This document shows positions 45,242-64,000 of a stretch of DNA of 64,000 nt, in pieces; position 1 is the stretch's first letter; every line of letters begins with the position of its first letter. Made by a program: the position numbers and the translations under genes. Source of the DNA: Alistipes timonensis. Its GTDB lineage: Bacteria; Bacteroidota; Bacteroidia; Bacteroidales; Muribaculaceae. The notes beneath the pieces were generated by a model. That model worked only from the letters and a program-made list of their open reading frames with translations. It was not told the DNA's origin and did no database searches. The stretch spans positions 443,220-507,219 of the forward strand of contig JAMPHO010000001.1 in NCBI GenBank assembly GCA_023663385.1. Reading direction: 5' to 3'.

Positions 45242-47629
45242 ATGGGAGAAGGCGCGTCAGGTAGAATAACGGCCATTGTGTCGGCTTTGATCGTGGCTCT
45301 TGCCGCTTTCCCGGCGGGAGTGGTCACCCGCCATTTCGGCCCTGAGGAGGGGCTGGCCCACGACCATGTGCGCGACATCACCCAGGATTCCCGCGGATAT
45401 ATGTGGTTCGCCACCTGGACCGGGGTCGACCGCTTCGACGGCTACGAATTTCGCAACTACCGCTCCTTCCCCGGCGATTCCGTCAAACTCGACAACAACC
45501 GCGTGGAGCGGGTCGAGGAGGATGAGCAGGGGCGTATGTGGATCATGACTTACACCGGGCGCGTGTACTCCATCGACGGTGCAACGGGGCGCTTCTCCCT
45601 TGCCACGAGCGCCGACTCGGCCCGTTTCATCCGCCTGAGCCATCCTAAATGGAAAGTGCGCGACGAACTGGCCGACTTCGAGGTCGAAACGCCGCTGAGT
45701 TTCACCGACCGCGACGGCAACCTATGGCTCGCGCGCCGTACCGACGGAATCGACTATGTGTCGGCAGCGCCTGAGGCTTTCAAGTTTATCGACAGCGAGC
45801 CCCTCGAACCGATAGGGAACGACATACACAACCTCTACGCCGCTCCCGACGGACGGTTGTGGGCCACCTCGCGCGACAAGAGGGTTATGCTTTATGACTC
45901 GGCGGGGGGATACGTCGGGAATCTCGCTCCCGACGGGCGAGTGGTCGCCAACCCCTCTGTGTCATCCGGGCTGATGGTCTACTCGGCGTTTACCGACAGC
46001 CGCGGCCGGGTATGGCTCGGTACCAAGCAGAAGGAGCTCGCCGTGCTCACCCCTGCGGGGGATGGCCGGTTCGCGCTAAAGCGCTACCGCGAAGGTGAAA
46101 GGGGGCTGCGATGCGGTGATATATACGCTTTCGCCGAGGACTCCGCGGGGAATCTCTGGATCGGCACTTTTGGTGGAGGGGTCGCCAAGGTCGAGGAGGG
46201 GGCCGACGGGGAGCCGCTGTTCGAATTCCCCGCCCGATACCCTGCGGAGAGCGCCGGAAGGGTTCGCGAACTCGTGATGCTCGACAACGGGCTTATGGTA
46301 GGCGCCACAACCCGCGGAGTCGTGGCTTTCGACCCCTCTGCGCCAATCGATAGCATAAGCTTCCGTTTGCATACCACGGATCCGTCGCGCGGCGGGGCGC
46401 TGAGTAACAACGATGTGCTCGACATACTCCCAGCCGCCGACGGCTCGCTCTATTTCTCAGCCTATTCAGGGGGTATCGACCGACTCGCTTCGCCCGACGA
46501 ACTGATGGCCGAAAGCCCTGAGTTCAACAACCGCAACATCCGCGACGGGCTGGCTGTTGACCCCGTTCTGTCGGTCACCCAGGATGCCGAAGGGGGCTTC
46601 TGGGTGGTATCGCACAGCGCCATAGCCCGTTATGACGGAGATTGGAACCATATCGCGACCTACAATGCCGGGAACGCCGGGAGGCCATTCAGGCTTACCG
46701 AGGCACGGCCGCAGTCGCTCCCGGGCGGGCGGTTCGCGTTCGGCATAGGTGGCGGCCTTCTTATAATTGACCCGGCGGCGATAGCGAGCCGCGGTGTGCC
46801 CCGCTTCGCTGTTACGGAGGTCGAAGCCGGGGGAGAGCGGTTTACGGGGCTTCCCGCCGACGGGGTTATACGGCTCCCACGGGGCGACCGCGACCTTACA
46901 GCGCGTTTCGCCGCGCTGGATTTCGCCGGTGCCTCTAACATAATGTATGCCTACCGGCTCGACGACGGCGACTGGATGCCCCTCGGGCATGAGCGGGTTG
47001 TGCGCCTGTCGAGTCTCCCATCCGGCACCACCCGCATATCGCTGCGATGGACCGACGCTTACGGCGTATGGACCGATGAGCCGTTTGAGTTTGCGATAGA
47101 GGTTCCTCGTACCTGGCGCGAGATTGCCGGTGACTGCGCCATTGTTCTCTGCGCCGCGGCGGCTTTCGCCGCGATATTGTTCGCCGCGTTCCGCGAGTAT
47201 GGCCGGCGCAAACGTCGCCGCGCCCTTGAACGGTATATCGCCATGGCTCTCGGAGGGGGCGCGGGCGAAGGGAGTCACGCGGGTGCCGACGCGGTGGCCG
47301 GTGTGATGGCTGGAGTGTGCCGCGTTGTTGGCGAGCGCTACCCCGACAGCGCCCTACGGGCCGAGGATGTGGCCCGCGGGGTGGGGGTCGGGCGCGGCGA
47401 GCTCAGGCGCGTGGTGAAAGCCGCTGCCGGAATCTCCATCGAGGATTTCATCAGGGCCGTGCGCGTGCGCGCCGCCTCGCGGCTCCTCGCCGAGGGGAAG
47501 CTCAACGTGGCCGAGACCGCCTATCGCTGCGGCTTCAAGACACCGCAGTATATGGCTATGCTCTTCAAGGAGCAGACGGGGCTGACCCCCTCGGACTACG
47601 CCTCCAGGCGCCGAAAAAAATGTAAGTAA
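45242..47629 (+). CDS. Membrane-spanning one-component regulator: propeller sensor, Y_Y_Y, helix, AraC domain
   Basis: A 795-residue protein. Signal-like N-terminus, then two-component-regulator propeller repeats (~25-520: FGPEEGLAHDHVRDITQDSRGYMWFATWTGVDRFDG, LKLDNNRVERVEEDEQGRMWI-like, FAEDSAGNLWIGTFGGGVAKV), a Y_Y_Y domain (~540-620), one membrane helix (~628-650), and directly an AraC-type HTH (~690-795: ADVARGVGVGRGELRRVVKA-like, AETAYRCGFKTPQYMAMLFKEQTGLTPSDYASRRRK). Classic hybrid regulators have kinase and receiver domains between helix and HTH; here they are absent. It should sense a glycan in the periplasm and bind DNA while tethered. The probable target is the pectin esterase gene 120 bp downstream. 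Confidence 0.9.
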   Translation: MGEGASGRITAIVSALIVALAAFPAGVVTRHFGPEEGLAHDHVRDITQDSRGYMWFATWTGVDRFDGYEFRNYRSFPGDSVKLDNNRVERVEEDEQGRMWIMTYTGRVYSIDGATGRFSLATSADSARFIRLSHPKWKVRDELADFEVETPLSFTDRDGNLWLARRTDGIDYVSAAPEAFKFIDSEPLEPIGNDIHNLYAAPDGRLWATSRDKRVMLYDSAGGYVGNLAPDGRVVANPSVSSGLMVYSAFTDSRGRVWLGTKQKELAVLTPAGDGRFALKRYREGERGLRCGDIYAFAEDSAGNLWIGTFGGGVAKVEEGADGEPLFEFPARYPAESAGRVRELVMLDNGLMVGATTRGVVAFDPSAPIDSISFRLHTTDPSRGGALSNNDVLDILPAADGSLYFSAYSGGIDRLASPDELMAESPEFNNRNIRDGLAVDPVLSVTQDAEGGFWVVSHSAIARYDGDWNHIATYNAGNAGRPFRLTEARPQSLPGGRFAFGIGGGLLIIDPAAIASRGVPRFAVTEVEAGGERFTGLPADGVIRLPRGDRDLTARFAALDFAGASNIMYAYRLDDGDWMPLGHERVVRLSSLPSGTTRISLRWTDAYGVWTDEPFEFAIEVPRTWREIAGDCAIVLCAAAAFAAILFAAFREYGRRKRRRALERYIAMALGGGAGEGSHAGADAVAGVMAGVCRVVGERYPDSALRAEDVARGVGVGRGELRRVVKAAAGISIEDFIRAVRVRAASRLLAEGKLNVAETAYRCGFKTPQYMAMLFKEQTGLTPSDYASRRRKKCK

Positions 47630-47647: not shown

Positions 47648-47716
47648 AGCGGCAGTTTTCACGCCTTTGAGCGGCAATTTTTGCTCCATGCGGCGATAGG
47701 CAAGTCAATAATTTCG
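47648..47716 (+). promoter_or_regulatory. Promoter and candidate regulator operator for the pectin esterase gene
   Basis: Direct repeat AGCGGCAGTTTT (47648-47659) and AGCGGCAATTTT (47670-47681), period 22. A TAATTTCG -7-like box is at 47709-47716, 34 bases before the ATG. The proximal repeat starts 39 bases before the -7 box, where an AraC-type activator would touch RNA polymerase. The promoter at 63322-63388 has the same build. Confidence 0.6.
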
Positions 47717-47749: not shown

Positions 47750-50700
47750 ATGAAAAAAATCAAAAAGCTATTATTGTCGGCTTTGCTGGCCGCGCTCCCC
47801 GCGGGGATGGCGGCAGCCACGCTCTACACCTGTGGCGACAGCACCATGGCCGACTATGCGACTGACGGCTCAACGCCCACCCGCGGCTGGGGCCAGTATT
47901 TCGGCGCGTTTTTCAACGACGACATCACCGTAGTCAACCGCGGCAAGGGTGGTATGGATGTGCGGGGGTTCTACGATGGCGCCGCATATTGGCCCACCAT
48001 TAAGAAAGCGCTACAGCCCGGCGACTATGTGCTGCTCCAGTTCGCCCACAACGATGAGAAGAACGGCGGCATGGACGGCCAGCAGCTCTACGACTATTAC
48101 ATCGCTAAGGGTGACCAGACCGCCGCGGCCGCTGTTGATAAGCGCGGTTCCATACCCCACGACACCTATGTGAAGACACTCCGCAAACTTGTCGCGGAAA
48201 TCCGCGAGAAAGGGGCTACACCGCTCTTCGCTTCCTCGGTTTGCCGTATGAATTTCTCCAATGGCGACATCCGCCGCGCCGGGCGCCATGACCTCGGCGA
48301 TAGCTTCAGCCTGCTTACCGCGAACGGCCCCACGACGGGCAACAAGGTGGCTGCCGACGACCATTCCATGGACTTCCGCTGGCAGATGGAGCAGCTCGCC
48401 GCCGAGCTTGACGTTCCCTTCTTCGACCTTACAGAGTCGACCCGCCAGCTCTTCGTGAAGTACGGCGATGCCAAGTGCCACGAGCTCCTCTCCGACGGCA
48501 ACGGCTCAACGCACCTCAGTGTGGCCGGCGCGGCCCTGATTGCCCGGCAGTGCGCCGAGCTGATGAGCAAGCAGGGCGTGCTCGCCGACAAAATCAATAT
48601 CAGCGACGCCGGACTCAGCATCACACCCGCCGACGGCAACCTTGGCGAGGCTTACACCGGCAACGTGCTGACCAAGGAGTTTACAATGACCGGCTTCGGT
48701 CTCGCTCCCGAAAGCGGCAACGTCACCGTCAGCTCCGACGGCGCTTTCGAACTCTCGACCGACAAGGCGCGCTGGAGCAACTCCATCGAACTTTCCTACG
48801 ATGGCGGTACCCTCATCGGTACTTTCTTCGTGAAAGCCTCGCTGAAGAATCCCGGCGCCCTGCAGGGCACCCTTACCGCCTCGGCTTCGAACTCCACGGT
48901 TTCGATTCCCGTTTCAGCTAACGGAGTCGCAATTCCTGGTAGCGGCGCGGTGAGCGTGGCCTGGCCCCTGCTCTCCGATATGAATTACGCGCTCGACGGA
49001 GAAGCCGAGGTAGTCGCCATGAAGCTCGTCGGCATGGAGGCCGCCGGTTTCGACGGCGGCATCAACCTGCTCCCCGCCGGTGGCAGCTGGCCCGCCGGTG
49101 ACATCGACGAATCGCCGACCCGATATATCGAATTCGGCATCAAGGCCCCCCAGGGGAAGACAATCCAGGTAAACAAGATGGCCCTCAAGCTCGGCGGAAT
49201 CTCCACCGATGCGATGCAGTGCCATGTAAGCTACTCCAAGGAAGCCGGATTCGGTTCTCCGAGAACATTCTACAGCCCGTCGACTATGGCGAAGGACGTT
49301 ATGAACGACGTTTCGACCTCCGACCTGGTGAATGTCGGCGAGGGTGAGACCCTTCTGCTCCGCGTTTATCCCTGGACCACCGGCGCCGTTTCCAACGCCC
49401 CTCTGCGTATTGCCGGAGTTGAAATCGGCGGTTATGTAAGCAACGCCTCGACCACCGTGTCGCTCGCCTGGCCCCTCGACAAGGGTGCCTCCAACCCTTC
49501 GACCGCTGATACCACCAGCGACTCCTTCTCCTTCACGAGCCATTCCGTAGGTTCGGAAATCACCGCCACCGGCACTTCGAAACCCGCCGACCGCACCGGC
49601 ACCATGTACCAGCCCGCGGTCAACAACCAGAACGGCTACACAGAGGCCGGTTCGATCGCTTTCTCCGTCCGTCCCAAATACGGCATCACTTTCCAGCCTA
49701 AAAAGGTCTCCTTCTACGCTACCCGCAACGGCACCGACGGCGGCAAGCTCAACTGCGTGCTTGATGTCGACGGCGCCACTACCGAACTCGGCAAGGACCT
49801 CGAACCGGTGCGCAACAACAACGAGGCGCTCGGCAAGCAGAAATACTTCGAGTTCGACGTCAACGGTGTGGTTGTATACAACAACACAATGACCCTCCGC
49901 ATCGGCATTTCGGCCCTTGGCAACACCAAGACCATCACCATCCACGACGTTGTTGTAGAAGGTGAGGTTTCCGGCCAGGAGATTCCCGTGCCCTCCTACA
50001 CCATCACCGCCGTGCCCTCGATTGCCGAGGCAGGCACCGTGACCATAACCCCCAACACCCCCACGATCGAAGAGAATGTGGAGGTTACAGTCGCCGCCAC
50101 CGAGAATTTCGGCTACCGCTTCACAGGCTGGAGCGTGGGTGGCGAAACCGTTTCCACCGCCAACCCCTACAAGTTCTCAGCCGCCTCCGACCTGGCGCTC
50201 GTTGCCGACTACGACCGTCTGACGGTTTATCCCCTCGAACTCGCCATCGAAGGTGGCGCCAACGACTATATGGTGAACGTGGCCCCCGAGGGTCACGTCA
50301 TTGACGGCGTGCGCTACTATGAGGCCGGTACCGAGGTGGTGCTCTCCGCCTCCAACAACCGTGTGGTCACCTTTACCAACTGGGAGGATAATACCACCGC
50401 CCCCGAGCGCGAAGTGCGTATGGACTCCCCCAAAGCAGTTACGGCCACCTTCTCGACCGATGACTTTATCGTCGGCTGGGACTTCCGCAACGACGAACCC
50501 GGTTCGGAGCGCGCCGCCGACTTCCGTGCCGAGTCGGACAACGCGGGCCTGATGTCGCTCCACAACGAAAACGGCGAGACTTCGGGCTGGCTCCCCCGCG
50601 GCGTGAACCGCGGTGACGAGAATGGCCGTTACGCCGCCCGCATCTGGAAGGTGCGCACCTCGAAACTCTTCTTCGAGGCTTCGTTCTCAACCAAAGGCTA

Positions 50701-52639
50701 CACCGACATCACCGTAGGCTCCGCCCTCAGCTGCTCCTACAACACCTACAGCCGCTTCTTCGTGCAGTACTCGCTCGACGGCAAGGAGTATAAGACCCTC
50801 GGCGAGATGGCTCCCGGCAACCGCGTGTGGACCGACGCCGACTTCAAGCTCCCCGCCGACGCCAATGACTTCGGCCGAGTGTATGTGCGTTGGTACCCCG
50901 ACTTCGATTCCGAACTGATCGGCAACGCGACCGACTACGACGGCCTGGCAATCACCGATGTGTTCGTGCTCGGTTTGCCCCTCGCCGCTGACGACAACGT
51001 GGCTCCGAAACTTACTACCTCCATCCCCGCCGACAACGCCACCGGCGCTTCGGTCAATGGTTCGGTAGTGCTCACCTACGACGAGAAAATCATCCTCGGC
51101 AGCGGTGCGGCCACTCTCGACGGAAAGTCGGTTACCCCGACCATCTCCGGCAAGAGCGCCGTGTTCCGCTACACCGGCCTTGACTACAACACCACCTACA
51201 CCTTCAGTATGCCCGCCGGCGTGATTACCGACCGCAGCGGCAACGCTGCCCCCGCCGCCACACTCACGTTCACCACTATGGAGCGTGTTCAGCCCGAGGC
51301 GCGTCTCTTCGACGCCGTTGTGGCTCTCGACGGCACTGGTGACTACGCTTCCGTGCAGGCCGCCATCGACGCCGCTCCCGCCGGACGCGTGAAGCCCTGG
51401 CTTATATTCGTGAAGAACGGCAACTACAAGGAACACGTCGACATACCCTCGACCAAGCCCTTCATCCACATCATCGGCCAGGACCGCGAAAAGACCGTGG
51501 TGCTTGACGACAAACTTTGCGGCGGCGACAACGCCGTACACGTCAGCGTGGGCGCTACCGTGGTTGTAAACGCCAACGACTGCTTCTTCGAGAACATCAC
51601 CCTTGAGAACTCCTACGGCCACGAGCAGCAGAACGGCCCCCAGGCACTGGCACTCAACACTTCCGGCGACCGCACGATTTTCAACAACGTCGCCATGCTC
51701 TCCTACCAGGATACCTGGATTACCCCCGGCAAGTCGGCCTACCGCGCCTATGTCAAGAACTCGCTGATCGAGGGTGCCGTCGACTTCATCTACAACAGCG
51801 GCGACATCTACATCGAAAACACCACTCTGCTGATTACCCGCGACTCGGGTGGCTATATCGTGGCTCCCTCGCACGACAAGGATGTGGCCTGGGGCTATGT
51901 GTTCCGCGACTGCGTGATCACGGCGCCCGGCGACCCCTCGAAGACCACCGTATGGCTCGGCCGCCCCTGGCACAACTACCCCAAGACAGTGTTCCTCAAC
52001 ACCCGCGCCGAGGTGAACATCCCCGCTACCGGCTGGTATGACCATATGGGCGGACTCCCCGTAATCTGGGCCGAGTGGAACACCACCGACGCCAACGGCA
52101 ACCTCGTTGACCTCTCGCAGCGCCGCGACACCTACTACCGCGAGGAGAACGGCCAGAAAGTCTACGGCACCGCCAAAAACCGCCTTACCGACGAGGAAGC
52201 CGCCGAGTACACCGTAGCCAACGTGCTCTCCGGCAGCGACTCCTGGCAACCCGCCATCAAAACCGAGGCTTGCGCCACCCCGCGCCCCGCGGTGAGCGGT
52301 TCGATAATCGAATGGGAAACTGTTCCTTACGCTATCTGCTATGTTGTGACCGATGGTGACACCGTTGTCGACATCACAACCGACACTATGACGGAGCTTC
52401 CCGCCGGCCGTGCCAACGGCAACTATGCCGTGCAGGCAGTCAACGAGTTCGGCGGACTCTCAGCCAAGGGCCTTCCCGGCACCACCGGCATCAGAGCTGT
52501 TGACGCGGAAGAGTGCGAAATCGTGGCCGTCTACGACCTCCAGGGTCGTCCGCTGGCCCGTCCGACCCGCGGCGTGAACATCGTGTGCAAGCGCGCTCGC
52601 TCCGGCGAAACTTTCGTCGAGAAACTGATCCTCAAATAA
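47750..52639 (+). CDS. Giant two-esterase pectin enzyme: rhamnogalacturonan acetylesterase-like plus CE8 pectinesterase, T9SS cargo
   Basis: A 1629-residue secreted protein. Signal peptide ~1-23; SGNH domain (~25-265) like CE12 rhamnogalacturonan acetylesterases with nucleophile Ser31 in CGDSTMA, FAHNDEKNGG and DGNGSTHLS; beta modules to ~745; two InlB-like B-repeats (~749-900); a jelly-roll-like module (~905-1085); Ig-like Big_5 (~1085-1185, PKLTTSIPADNATGASVNG); CE8 pectin methylesterase beta-helix (~1187-1500) with GPQALAL, SYQDTW, the acid in GAVDFIYNSG and LGRPW; T9SS type A-like tail (~1555-1629, VYDLQGRPLA...ETFVEKLILK). It can remove both acetyl and methyl groups from pectin, opening it to GH28 or lyases. 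Confidence 0.93.
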   Translation: MKKIKKLLLSALLAALPAGMAAATLYTCGDSTMADYATDGSTPTRGWGQYFGAFFNDDITVVNRGKGGMDVRGFYDGAAYWPTIKKALQPGDYVLLQFAHNDEKNGGMDGQQLYDYYIAKGDQTAAAAVDKRGSIPHDTYVKTLRKLVAEIREKGATPLFASSVCRMNFSNGDIRRAGRHDLGDSFSLLTANGPTTGNKVAADDHSMDFRWQMEQLAAELDVPFFDLTESTRQLFVKYGDAKCHELLSDGNGSTHLSVAGAALIARQCAELMSKQGVLADKINISDAGLSITPADGNLGEAYTGNVLTKEFTMTGFGLAPESGNVTVSSDGAFELSTDKARWSNSIELSYDGGTLIGTFFVKASLKNPGALQGTLTASASNSTVSIPVSANGVAIPGSGAVSVAWPLLSDMNYALDGEAEVVAMKLVGMEAAGFDGGINLLPAGGSWPAGDIDESPTRYIEFGIKAPQGKTIQVNKMALKLGGISTDAMQCHVSYSKEAGFGSPRTFYSPSTMAKDVMNDVSTSDLVNVGEGETLLLRVYPWTTGAVSNAPLRIAGVEIGGYVSNASTTVSLAWPLDKGASNPSTADTTSDSFSFTSHSVGSEITATGTSKPADRTGTMYQPAVNNQNGYTEAGSIAFSVRPKYGITFQPKKVSFYATRNGTDGGKLNCVLDVDGATTELGKDLEPVRNNNEALGKQKYFEFDVNGVVVYNNTMTLRIGISALGNTKTITIHDVVVEGEVSGQEIPVPSYTITAVPSIAEAGTVTITPNTPTIEENVEVTVAATENFGYRFTGWSVGGETVSTANPYKFSAASDLALVADYDRLTVYPLELAIEGGANDYMVNVAPEGHVIDGVRYYEAGTEVVLSASNNRVVTFTNWEDNTTAPEREVRMDSPKAVTATFSTDDFIVGWDFRNDEPGSERAADFRAESDNAGLMSLHNENGETSGWLPRGVNRGDENGRYAARIWKVRTSKLFFEASFSTKGYTDITVGSALSCSYNTYSRFFVQYSLDGKEYKTLGEMAPGNRVWTDADFKLPADANDFGRVYVRWYPDFDSELIGNATDYDGLAITDVFVLGLPLAADDNVAPKLTTSIPADNATGASVNGSVVLTYDEKIILGSGAATLDGKSVTPTISGKSAVFRYTGLDYNTTYTFSMPAGVITDRSGNAAPAATLTFTTMERVQPEARLFDAVVALDGTGDYASVQAAIDAAPAGRVKPWLIFVKNGNYKEHVDIPSTKPFIHIIGQDREKTVVLDDKLCGGDNAVHVSVGATVVVNANDCFFENITLENSYGHEQQNGPQALALNTSGDRTIFNNVAMLSYQDTWITPGKSAYRAYVKNSLIEGAVDFIYNSGDIYIENTTLLITRDSGGYIVAPSHDKDVAWGYVFRDCVITAPGDPSKTTVWLGRPWHNYPKTVFLNTRAEVNIPATGWYDHMGGLPVIWAEWNTTDANGNLVDLSQRRDTYYREENGQKVYGTAKNRLTDEEAAEYTVANVLSGSDSWQPAIKTEACATPRPAVSGSIIEWETVPYAICYVVTDGDTVVDITTDTMTELPAGRANGNYAVQAVNEFGGLSAKGLPGTTGIRAVDAEECEIVAVYDLQGRPLARPTRGVNIVCKRARSGETFVEKLILK

Positions 52640-57405: not shown

Positions 57406-58392
57406 TTATCGGTTAAGGCGGAGCGATAAACGGGCGCTTTGTGCGGCGATAGACGAGGCCAGGTCGTTTAGTCTGTGGCACCGCGCCCTCGAAAGCCTGG
57501 GTTCGCGGGTGGTGTAGGCAGCGGGTGCGATTATGAGCAGGCGCCCTTCCGCGCAAAGGTCAAAGTCGCGCCCGGTGGGTTTGAATCGTTCGGGTAGTCC
57601 GTTGGTTGTAAGTTGTATAATATTGGCGCCCCGCTCGATAGCGTTTTGCCTGACAGCCTTTTCTGGGACGCTTATGAAAGGTGATACGAGAGCGCCCCCT
57701 GAGCGGATTGTTTCCTCCCACTCACGCTGACGCTCTTGAAGCTCTAATTGAGAATAGGAACGGCTGACTCTTACGGCTGAAATCATATGGCGGCGCAGAA
57801 GTAAGAAATTGCCGTAGAAGGCGTATGGCACGCCATCAATCGATATATTGCCGACTCGGCCGAAGTACTCTGGGTGTGTTTTCCTTATCAGATATCGCCG
57901 CGGGTTATCATCGATATATCGCCGGAAATTTTCCAGTTGCCCACGGCGATATACTATGCCGTCGTTGAATCCTTTTTGAAAGAGCCCGGTAGCCTCGATT
58001 TTTTGGCGAAGAGCGTCATCAGATGCCAATGCGGCCTTGAAGCAGTTCGCTTTAAGTGAGGCGATTATCTGACCGAGAGTTTTATCAGTTTTCTCTTTTA
58101 CGAAAACCAGCAGATGCACATGGTCTGGCATCACGCACGAGGTTATGACAGAAACAAATGGAAAGTGCGATTTCAGATTGTCTATCTCGGCATTTATTAT
58201 GGCACCGATTTCAGTAAGTTCACATCGGGCGGTCGCGACTTGTCCGGGTGTGGCGGCCACGACGCTTGAGAAAGGGGAAATGCCTCCTACGGCGTTGAAT
58301 GTCACGAGGTAGATACGGCGCCCTCTGTAGTCATTCCATCGGGCGCGGGCGAGTCGGTCTGGATTTTTGCGGCCAGTGTAAGGGGAGGCCAT
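57406..58392 (-). CDS. REP-associated tyrosine transposase (RAYT, Y1_Tnp type)
   Basis: A 328-residue protein. Y1 transposase domain (~20-190) with the metal-binding HUH motif in VMPDHVHLLVFVKEKTDKTLGQIIASLKANC, the preceding GRRIYLVTFN opening strand, and FQKGFNDGIVYRRGQLENFRRYIDDNPRRYLIRKTHPEYF containing the candidate catalytic Tyr. The C-terminal ~130 residues (SQLELQERQREWEETIRSGG, LTTNGLPERFKPTGRDFDLCAEGRLLIIAPA) look like a DprA/LOG-type Rossmann tail seen in some Bacteroidetes RAYTs; function unknown. It is flanked by three REPs, two downstream and one 41 bp upstream. Confidence 0.9.
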   Translation of the reverse strand: MASPYTGRKNPDRLARARWNDYRGRRIYLVTFNAVGGISPFSSVVAATPGQVATARCELTEIGAIINAEIDNLKSHFPFVSVITSCVMPDHVHLLVFVKEKTDKTLGQIIASLKANCFKAALASDDALRQKIEATGLFQKGFNDGIVYRRGQLENFRRYIDDNPRRYLIRKTHPEYFGRVGNISIDGVPYAFYGNFLLLRRHMISAVRVSRSYSQLELQERQREWEETIRSGGALVSPFISVPEKAVRQNAIERGANIIQLTTNGLPERFKPTGRDFDLCAEGRLLIIAPAAYTTREPRLSRARCHRLNDLASSIAAQSARLSLRLNR

Positions 58393-60911: not shown

Positions 60912-63242
60912 TTATTTGGCTATTTCTTGAAGCCCGTTCCGCCGGAATTCGGCGGCCGACACTCCGTGCCTGGTTTTGAACACCCGCTGGAAGTACTGCG
61001 GGTCGGAGTAGCCGCAGAGCGCCGAGATGTCGGCCAGCGAGCGCTCTTCGGGTTCGCGGAGCAGTTGCTCGGCCCGCTGCATACGCGCCTCTGTGAGCAG
61101 TTGCGCCGCCGAAATGCCTAATTGCGAGCGCAGATGGCGGTTCAGGGTCGAACGGCTTGCCGCCGCTGCCGCCGCCATATCGTCGATATTTGCCTCAGGG
61201 TTGTCGATATTCTCCTCTATATAGCGCCGCACCCGGTTGAGAAACGGGGTGTCCTCCGGCTTCTCGGGCAATTCCTGTGGCTCGTTGGCGCTGCCATCAG
61301 TTTTTTCAATTACCGGCTCGGGAGCGGTATCGGCTTCGGAAGAATCCTCAGCGGCAGTGCTCCCCGCGGGGGTGCCGGAGCTGATGAGCGCCATATATTT
61401 CTCAAGGAGTTCGCGGCGCTGCCTGTTGACTTTGCGGACGTATATATAGGTGTACGCGATCGCTCCGGCAGCTCCCAGGCCGAGGAGTGCGAAGAGCAGT
61501 GTGGCCCACCAGGTTTCGTACCAGTAAGGGGCGACGTTGATTTCAAGCACGCGGTTATTATCGACCCAGCGGCCATAGCGGTCGGTCGACTGCGCTTCGA
61601 GGAGGTGCCGTCCCGGGGATAGGTTGAACAGGGTCGCGCTTCGGTCGCGGTCGGCGGCGGTCCAGGGGGAGCCGTCGACCCTTGTGCGGTAAAGGATGCC
61701 GGAGTTGTCTACATAGTCGATCGCCGCGAAGCGTATCGTGGCGTTGCGGCCATCGGCGGGAAGATCCACTGAGGTTGTCGGAGCCAGGCGGAATTCCTCG
61801 GCCCCGCCATTGATGGCGATGGTTGTGAACACAATCGGGGGGATGTCGCCGCGGCTGTAGAGGTTGTGGGGGGTGGCGAGGAAGGCTCCCTGCTCCGCGC
61901 CGAACACCCAGGAGCCGTCGGGGAGTTTCACCGGGGTGGTTTCGGCAAAACGGCACGAATCCCCCCAGAATCGGCGGCTGAAGTTTACTGTCTGGCCGCT
62001 CTCGGGGTTGAAAGCGGCTACGTTGTCGTTGCCTACCACCATTATCAGCGTGTCGGAGTCCAGGGCCATGGCCTTGCACATATCCCCCGGCAGCGTTGAG
62101 TTGCCGCGGTTGAAATGGGTGAATTCCGGATCCGGGTCAAGGATGCGCGATTCGTGCACGCGGTCGATGCCCGAGCTTTCCGTTGCTATGTATATGTACC
62201 CTTTGGAGTCGCGGGCGAGCGCCATGGTTGAGTTGCTGCCGAGGCTCCGCGGGTTGTGGCCGTCGCGGCGTATCGGGCGCAGGGTGGTGCTGCGGAAGTC
62301 GCCGTAGTCTATTCGGCCCGCGAGGAGGCCGTCGGTGGTGGCCGCCACGAGTATACCCCCCGGGGTAATGAGCAGCTGCCTCACCCGTTTGCCGCCGAGC
62401 GAAGCCGAGAGGGTGGGGTGCTCGCTCCGCGGGTCGGGGCAGCATTTTACGCCGTCGCCGAAGGTTGCCACCCACAGCCTTCCCAGGGAATCCTCCTTGA
62501 TGTCGTACACGGCGTCGGGTGCGATGCTTTCGCTGCCGTCGCGCGACAGTCCGCCGGGTTTGCACCCAACCCAAAGGTCGCCCGACCGCGTTTCGTAAAT
62601 TGCGTACGGGGCCGAAGTGAGTGTGGTTTTCAAGACGGCTGAATCCGGGGAGGAGTACAGGCGTATGGCCCGGTCGCCCCGGGTGCCTATCAGAAGTTCC
62701 CCTTTGGAGTCGAGGAGCATGGCGCGGGGGTGCAGCCCCTCGGTGCCCTTGATTACGCGAGCGGGATGGTGCGTTTCCGTGAGCTTTCTCAACCCCGACC
62801 CGTCGTAGTTCCAGCGGTTCCCTTGCGAATCGGTCAGACCTCGCCAGGGGCGCCCCATGACCTCGCGCAGGGAGTCTTTGCGCTCCCGGGGAATGTCGTT
62901 GAACTCGTAAGTCGCGAGGTTGAATTCGAAGAAATCATCGTCGGTGTGGCAGAGTATGTTCCTCTCGGCCGACAGGAGTATGTCGCGTATGCGGTCGGTG
63001 CCGATCGGGGCGCGGTCGCCCGGTTTGATTTTCACCCAGTGGAAATCGTAGCCGTCGTAGCAGTTTAGTCCGTTCCAGGTCGCGAACCACAGCAGTCCGT
63101 CGGGAGCCTGCACGCCACCGCCGACCAATGGGCTCGACAGCCCGTCGGCAATATCGTAGCGGCGCTCCGCGACATTGGCGGCCCGGGCCGCGAGGGTGGC
63201 GCAGAGAATGATGAAACAAATAGCGAGGCGAAGCGGTCTCAT
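60912..63242 (-). CDS. Second membrane-spanning one-component regulator: propeller sensor, Y_Y_Y, helix, AraC domain
   Basis: A 776-residue protein. Signal peptide (LRLAICFIILCATLAARA), propeller repeats (~25-490: RYDIADGLSSPLVGGGVQAPDGLLWFATWNGLNCYDGYDF, DIKEDSLGRLWVATFGDGVK), Y_Y_Y domain (~500-570), a membrane helix (~575-600, ATLLFALLGLGAAGAIAYTYIYV), an acidic linker (~620-670), and an AraC HTH (~675-776: IDDMAAAAAASRSTLNRHLRSQLG, LADISALCGYSDPQYFQRVFKTRHGVSAAEFRR). No kinase or receiver domain. ATG 63242 is preferred to 63254 because TATATTTG lies at 63267-63274. It is divergent from the secreted-protein gene at 63417. Confidence 0.9.
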   Translation of the reverse strand: MRPLRLAICFIILCATLAARAANVAERRYDIADGLSSPLVGGGVQAPDGLLWFATWNGLNCYDGYDFHWVKIKPGDRAPIGTDRIRDILLSAERNILCHTDDDFFEFNLATYEFNDIPRERKDSLREVMGRPWRGLTDSQGNRWNYDGSGLRKLTETHHPARVIKGTEGLHPRAMLLDSKGELLIGTRGDRAIRLYSSPDSAVLKTTLTSAPYAIYETRSGDLWVGCKPGGLSRDGSESIAPDAVYDIKEDSLGRLWVATFGDGVKCCPDPRSEHPTLSASLGGKRVRQLLITPGGILVAATTDGLLAGRIDYGDFRSTTLRPIRRDGHNPRSLGSNSTMALARDSKGYIYIATESSGIDRVHESRILDPDPEFTHFNRGNSTLPGDMCKAMALDSDTLIMVVGNDNVAAFNPESGQTVNFSRRFWGDSCRFAETTPVKLPDGSWVFGAEQGAFLATPHNLYSRGDIPPIVFTTIAINGGAEEFRLAPTTSVDLPADGRNATIRFAAIDYVDNSGILYRTRVDGSPWTAADRDRSATLFNLSPGRHLLEAQSTDRYGRWVDNNRVLEINVAPYWYETWWATLLFALLGLGAAGAIAYTYIYVRKVNRQRRELLEKYMALISSGTPAGSTAAEDSSEADTAPEPVIEKTDGSANEPQELPEKPEDTPFLNRVRRYIEENIDNPEANIDDMAAAAAASRSTLNRHLRSQLGISAAQLLTEARMQRAEQLLREPEERSLADISALCGYSDPQYFQRVFKTRHGVSAAEFRRNGLQEIAK

Positions 63243-63266: not shown

Positions 63267-63274
63267 CAAATATA
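63267..63274 (-). promoter_or_regulatory. -7 box for the second regulator gene
   Basis: TATATTTG on the minus strand, full TAnnTTTG match, 24 bases before ATG 63242. Confidence 0.5.
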
Positions 63275-63311: not shown

Positions 63312-63388
63312 TTGACCCGTTTTGACCCGTTTTTCATCCCGATTGACCCGTTTTTCCCTCCCTTGGCGCTGGCGCGTTATTAAATTCG
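63312..63388 (+). promoter_or_regulatory. Promoter with three phased TTGACCCG repeats for the 63417 gene
   Basis: TTGACCCG at 63312, 63322 and 63343 (steps 10 and 21). The last two extend to a perfect 14-base repeat TTGACCCGTTTTTC, period 21. TAAATTCG at 63381-63388 is a -7-like box 28 bases before the ATG; the proximal repeat starts 38 bases before it. Candidate operator of the divergent AraC-type regulator. Confidence 0.6.
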
Positions 63389-63416: not shown

Positions 63417-64000
63417 ATGCTAACCAAGAGAAGACTACTACAGGCATGCGCCGTCGCGCTGTGCACCCTCCCCGCCGCGGGAGCCGAGCAGACCATCGCC
63501 GCCCACTGGGAATTTACCACCGGCTACGATGAGTCGAAGTCGGGAACGGAGGTTACCTACACCCCCAACGAGGCCGGATGGGCCGCGACTTCCAACGAGC
63601 GCTGGACTTCGCGCCAGCCCTATTTCCTCCCCAACTCCAGCGCCCTTCCAAGGGAGGAGTGCAAGGTATCGCTCCGCACCTCCGACGGCAAGTGGCAGCT
63701 CACCTCAAGCGGCTCCAATCCGAGCTACCTGCTGCGCCTAAATACCGCCTCGACGACAAATTTCACCCCCAAAGCCGACTATGCCGACGCCTCGAAGCAC
63801 GACCAGTACTTCGAAATCTCGATGCCCACTACCGCGCTTAGCAACGTGCGCCTTAATTTCGCCATCGGCGACGGGTCCAGCTCGGCTACCTCGTTCGGCG
63901 TGGTTTACTCCGTCGACGGGGGCGACACCTGGACCATTCTCGACGATTACAAGGCGGCGAGCCACTGGAACAGCTATAACGACGCCACCTACGACCTCAA
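63417..64000 (+). CDS. Secreted protein, N-terminal part (runs off the window)
   Basis: An open frame of 194 codons from ATG 63417 to the end with no stop. Signal peptide MLTKRRLLQACAVALCTLPA cleaved after AAGA; the mature part (AHWEFTTGYDESKSGTEVTY, SYLLRLNTASTTNF, DQYFEISMPTTALSNVRLNF, SFGVVYSVDGGDTWTILDDY) is a jelly-roll-like module similar to the VGWDFRNDEPGSE...FFVQYSLDGKEYKTLGEM module in the pectin esterase at 47750. Probably the front of another polysaccharide-degrading T9SS cargo. Set divergently from the second regulator, its likely activator. Confidence 0.8.
   Translation, partial: MLTKRRLLQACAVALCTLPAAGAEQTIAAHWEFTTGYDESKSGTEVTYTPNEAGWAATSNERWTSRQPYFLPNSSALPREECKVSLRTSDGKWQLTSSGSNPSYLLRLNTASTTNFTPKADYADASKHDQYFEISMPTTALSNVRLNFAIGDGSSSATSFGVVYSVDGGDTWTILDDYKAASHWNSYNDATYDL

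Follow-up and report, generated by a model that had tools for sequence, protein, structure and literature searches.

We predict that a pair of exact direct repeats in front of a gene for a secreted GH95 enzyme of Alistipes timonensis is the operator of a divergently encoded regulator, and that this regulator would switch on the adjacent enzyme gene. On the basis of sequence comparisons, we assign this reading a probability of roughly 0.83. Here the window denotes the whole stretch of 64,000 nucleotides that was analysed. The regulator, which we call regulator 1, is encoded at 60912..63242 on the minus strand, and the repeat-bearing promoter lies at 63312-63388. A layout of direct repeats 21 bp apart is already known; what is new is its attachment to one-component sensors that lack a kinase, together with a predicted regulon of two genes.

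The repeat and its promoter

The word TTGACCCGTTTTTC occurs twice on the plus strand, at 63322..63335 (unit 1) and, with a period of 21 bp, at 63343..63356 (unit 2), and a partial third copy, TTGACCCG, occupies 63312..63319. Unit 2 starts 38 bp before TAAATTCG (63381..63388, plus strand), the -7-type promoter box of the GH95 gene, and a 24-bp spacer separates its end from that box. An earlier note on this DNA had described this arrangement, and had compared it with a second promoter, at 47648, where the proximal copy lies 39 bp before its box and the T-run of the repeat keeps an equal distance from it. The coordinates bear out both descriptions: the T-run starts 30 bp before the box in the 63312 promoter and 31 bp before it in the 47648 promoter.

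The promoter consensus of Bacteroidetes consists of TAnnTTTG at -7 and TTTG at -33 (PMC7366714). The box TAAATTCG is one change away from the first of these elements and aligns with TAnnTTTG in the divergently arranged orthologs, as expected of a housekeeping -7 box. We sought a TTTG -33 element in the GH95 promoter at the usual distance from the -7 box, using the footprint alignment described below, and found none. On the minus strand, the sequence TATATTTG at 63267..63274 is a putative -7 box of the regulator 1 gene.

The repeat at 63322 and 63343 is real and exact, and chance is excluded as its source. The two units match each other at 14 of 14 positions, while 300 shuffles of the 174-bp intergenic region that preserved its dinucleotides gave, between 14-mers at periods of 15-29, a best match of 12 of 14. 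Furthermore, the window contains 49 boxes of the form TAnnTTYG, and only the TAAATTCG box is preceded by a match exceeding 11 of 14 at that repeat geometry.

Conservation among orthologs

Orthologs of regulator 1 are found in Muribaculaceae and Prevotellaceae, and every one of them adjoins the same GH95 gene. We aligned 13 promoters of divergently arranged orthologs on the enzyme's -7 box; because several of these orthologs are close relatives, the sample represents about nine or ten independent lineages rather than thirteen. The period between units is 21 bp in 12 of the 13 promoters (the exception, L045, has 22 bp), and the distance from unit 2 to the enzyme's box is 38 bp in 12 of the 13 (37 bp in L035). 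The consensus of the unit is TTGA(C/G)CCG(A/T)TTTT(C/T). Information per column amounts to 1.42 bits in unit 1, 1.33 in unit 2 and 1.66 in the -7 box, as opposed to 0.39 in the 7-bp gap and 0.19 in the 24-bp spacer. Thus the units and the box are conserved and the spacers are not. At the level of sequence, then, the orthologs maintain two direct repeats two helical turns (21 bp) apart and hold them 38 bp ahead of the -7 box of the GH95 gene. The earlier note had proposed looking for such repeats beside other members of the family; we did so, and the orthologs of both regulators discussed in this paper carry a repeat at the predicted place.

This footprint bears on the possibility that the repeat is a functionless tandem duplication, arising by chance or by slippage. 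The third copy, at 63312, indeed resembles a recent duplication of 10 bp; it is specific to this lineage and missing from the other ortholog promoters. The two full units, however, keep a fixed spacing in both families, unlike the unconserved spacers, and their match was never reached by the shuffles. The footprint refutes this explanation for the two full units, and we give it practically no credence.

One ortholog locus, L032, has convergent genes with no shared promoter region, and here the promoters of both the regulator and the enzyme carry the repeat. When a PWM built without L032 is applied to the 8.7 kb of this locus, its best two sites are the regulator promoter (score 26.2) and the enzyme promoter (17.1). 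The pair in the enzyme promoter stands 38-39 bp from its -7 box. At L033 we found no clear pair before the regulator gene, and the enzyme promoter lies off the contig.

These data allow us to weigh a mainly autoregulatory role, according to which regulator 1, bound at the repeat, represses or activates its own promoter, with only a secondary effect on the GH95 gene. Consistent with such a role, the regulator promoter of L032 has the better-scoring pair, and in 10 of the 13 orthologs a distance of 46-49 bp separates unit 2 from the -7-type box on the regulator side (68 bp in the window). The distance on the enzyme side is nevertheless the stricter one, with a single value in all but one promoter compared to a range of 46-68 bp; the enzyme promoter of L032 retains its pair; and a further site, described below, precedes an enzyme gene that has no regulator beside it. 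We therefore consider it unlikely that autoregulation is the main function of the repeat. Our preferred reading remains activation of the GH95 gene, to which control by regulator 1 of its own promoter would probably be added.

In addition, the 500 bp upstream of the regulator in L036 (and in L044) contain a long imperfect inverted repeat, AAGTAAGTCGTAAAAATTATT ... AATAATTTTTACGACTTACTT, which resembles a MITE or REP element. In one ortholog it forms an insertion immediately past the GH95 -7 box, on the downstream side; the close relative L045 has no insert.

Distribution of sites and words

Among the 397 genomes of the family, a full-length GH95 protein of the regulator-linked type occurs in exactly the 10 that have regulator 1. 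All nine readable promoters of GH95 genes beside regulator 1 contain the repeat (self-match 12-14 of 14), and it is absent from 20 GH95 paralogs without the regulator, whose self-match is at most 9 of 14. We also scanned 20 genomes, 10 with and 10 without regulator 1, using a degenerate pattern rather than a PWM. The pattern matches the intergenic region between regulator and GH95 gene in 8 of the 10 regulator-bearing genomes, and has no match in the 10 genomes that lack the regulator. It misses G160 because of a 22-bp period and G183 because of a base change.

The scan also addresses whether the repeat could be the target of some other DNA-binding protein, such as a global regulator, with the neighbouring AraC protein acting elsewhere. 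Any AraC-type protein would fit a 21-bp direct repeat. Yet the word is found only where regulator 1 is present, and the genome of the window has only two sites, where a global regulator would have many. We regard recognition by another protein as very improbable, and regulator 1 itself as the protein that would bind the repeat.

The sole other match over the 20 genomes lies in the window's own genome, unlinked to regulator 1 (G000:C13:12192-12225, equivalent to L102 6193-6226). Its unit 2 stands exactly 38 bp before TAATTTCG. The gene that follows encodes a secreted pectinesterase of 1219 aa, and no regulator adjoins it. A site of identical geometry at this place points to a second target of regulator 1, probably the secreted pectinesterase. 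Two independent predictions have held, namely the convergent promoters of L032 and the C13 site. The earlier note had each regulator control its neighbouring secreted enzyme gene. This proposal is supported by the sequences, with the correction that regulator 1 probably also acts on the unlinked pectinesterase gene and on its own promoter.

The second promoter belongs to regulator 2 (45242..47629, plus strand), which is kinase-less like regulator 1: Pfam finds Reg_prop and an AraC HTH domain, with Y_Y_Y below the cut-off, and a hydrophobic segment at 632 marks the TM helix. Its putative operator, AGCGGCAGTTTT / AGCGGCAATTTT (47648..47683, plus strand), has AGCGGCA units starting at 47648 and 47670, a period of 22 bp. 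The proximal unit precedes by 39 bp the -7-type box TAATTTCG at 47709..47716 (plus strand). The predicted target is the gene just downstream of regulator 2, encoding a secreted GDSL / Big_5 / pectinesterase protein by Pfam (47750..52639, plus strand); the C13 pectinesterase is 41% identical to it over 912 residues. Shuffle support for this repeat is weak, since its match of 11 of 14 was reached in 22 of 300 shuffles. It is, however, supported by four orthologs of regulator 2 (L053-L056), all of which keep a 22-bp pair at this distance in front of the same secreted enzyme, if with a weaker match. Their word, approximately GCGnCArTTTT, is unlike that of regulator 1, and the T-run is in the same place.

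The earlier note's reading therefore holds, because conservation extends to the regulator 2 repeat, whose word differs but whose T-run is at the same position. In particular, the note had held that the two repeats share a T-run and differ in the left half, and that the two regulators would have separate DNA specificities. The latter receives support from the sequences, in that each pattern finds its own promoter in the genome and not the other's. A 3-mismatch match to the regulator 2 operator on C51 was dropped, as it had no -7 box at the expected place. Near both regulator loci, the window contains a gene for an IS200/REP-associated transposase (Y1_Tnp; 57406-58392, minus strand).

Kinase-less sensors and known systems

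Regulator 1 consists of a signal peptide, a Reg_prop propeller, a Y_Y_Y domain, one TM helix and an AraC HTH, according to Pfam, an AlphaFold model and comparison with PDB folds. Pfam finds no HisKA, HATPase_c or receiver domain in it. The AraC domain (HTH_18, 9.4e-20 by Pfam) matches a chain of 12aw, which is named a hybrid two-component system protein. In the model, built with 14 orthologs and having a mean pLDDT of 83, a long TM helix (578-622) is followed by a disordered linker (623-661), which leads straight to the AraC domain (662-775). Among PDB folds, regulator 1 comes nearest to the sensor domains of BT4663 and BT3049, two hybrid two-component systems (HTCSs) of B. thetaiotaomicron. 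The predicted target gene (63417..64000 in the window, plus strand) runs beyond the window end to C11:510352, as established from locus L023, and encodes a secreted protein of 1238 aa with a Big_5 module and a GH95 catalytic domain (7e-168 by Pfam). Its nearest PDB sequence is the GH95 entry 4ufc.

These features suggest the following mechanism. Regulator 1 would be a one-component glycan sensor of the inner membrane, with propeller and Y_Y_Y domain in the periplasm and the AraC-type domain in the cytoplasm, connected by a single membrane helix and a flexible linker. A dimer would bind the two repeats from the same face of the DNA. A periplasmic ligand, probably an oligosaccharide derived from pectin given that the targets are a GH95 enzyme and a pectinesterase, would shift the dimer, and since the protein has no phosphorelay domain the signal would be transmitted directly from the periplasmic sensor. 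The DNA-binding domain nearest the promoter would then replace the missing -33 contact and recruit RNA polymerase, as AraC does at araI1-I2, and the GH95 gene would be switched on; activation as the direction of the effect is suggested by the geometry. The repeat probably acts on the promoter of regulator 1 as well. The araI1 and araI2 half-sites of AraC have a spacing of 21 bp, or two turns.

As a predicted activator of AraC type on two tandem half-sites, regulator 1 would resemble E. coli AraC at araI1-araI2 of araBAD (PMC4760080), where the proximal half-site is next to the polymerase site. However, AraC is a soluble protein with cytoplasmic sugar binding, whereas regulator 1 is membrane-bound with a periplasmic sensor. 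There is also a likeness to the HTCSs of Bacteroides: their operators consist of direct repeats with a spacing of about 21 bp (Ravcheev et al. 2013, PMC3878776). As in those systems, repeats of about 21 bp, conserved among orthologs, precede genes for glycan degradation, and an AraC-type C-terminal domain is fused to a propeller/Y_Y_Y sensor. Unlike HTCSs, regulator 1 has neither histidine kinase nor receiver domain, nor was any phospho-acceptor domain found in it, which leaves it unable to use the usual phosphorelay. The receiver domain of HTCSs restrains the DNA-binding domain until it is phosphorylated (PMC11253607), so that DNA binding would have to be controlled differently in regulator 1. 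A D/K pair contacts REC in HTCSs (PMC11253607). An alignment inspected by eye shows residues other than Asp at the Asp position of the orthologs; the idea that the contact has been lost carries little weight because the HTCSs of the same genome are not uniform at that position either. A by-eye look for covariation between the repeat unit and the recognition helix gave no clear pattern.

SusR-type starch regulators offer a further comparison: these one-component membrane proteins also have direct-repeat operators, and they activate glycan genes, as we predict for regulator 1. They use another DNA-binding domain, however, and their sites are separated by 67 or 77 bp (PMC3878776). Like the transmembrane transcription regulators, or TTRs (PMC10269533), regulator 1 unites a sensor with a membrane helix and a DNA-binding domain in a single kinase-less chain; a survey of TTRs counts Y_Y_Y domains among them. 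Our literature search found no described operator of a kinase-less propeller/AraC regulator.

According to the earlier note, the paired regulators share a promoter layout. The sharing is real, as both repeats are conserved, but it is not special to this pair. On contig C5 of the same genome, the gene beside an ordinary HTCS has a promoter in which a 21-bp pair stands 39 bp ahead of the -7 box. At L025 4740-5060 (G000:C33), another regulator, full-length and of HTCS size, is accompanied by a divergent 1058-aa gene of SusC-like length; the 21-bp repeat in the promoter of that gene, CATTTTCGCAA, precedes the -7 box by 77 bp, farther than in the other cases. The layout is therefore general to the AraC-type domains of the group.

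Other sensors were found as well. In G026, two further kinase-less Reg_prop/Y_Y_Y/AraC regulators (L091 3870-6548 and L092 5431-8262) adjoin GH43 and GH29/GH30 genes. Near the position expected for the promoter, both show weak 22-bp pairs; these are only suggestive, because scores of 9 of 14 arise by chance at about 5% of boxes. Short Y_Y_Y proteins of other families in the order (L087-L090) proved to be a contig-edge HTCS, LytS-like histidine kinases, or no complete protein, and were left unused. A 970-aa kinase-less propeller/Y_Y_Y protein (L027 5010-7922, G000:C3) ends in a LuxR-like rather than an AraC-type HTH, and its gene faces away from a divergent one of SusC-like length (1056 aa).

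Among the glycan sensors of gut Bacteroides, HTCSs form a major class (PMC11253607). We lean somewhat toward the view that the kinase-less propeller/AraC class dropped the phosphorelay and kept the HTCS operator geometry, the ligand signal being passed directly via the helix to the DNA-bound domains. Each member would have its own word in the left half of the unit, with the T-run and the promoter distance constant, so that specificity could be swapped in modular fashion. With a naturally kinase-less sensor and a well-defined predicted operator, one could test directly whether DNA binding can be driven from the periplasmic sensor in the absence of phosphorylation; the class would also offer compact sensor-promoter pairs with distinct specificities. 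For the Muribaculaceae, a little-studied gut family, the analysis yields a concrete prediction: an unlinked, pectin-related regulon of two enzymes.
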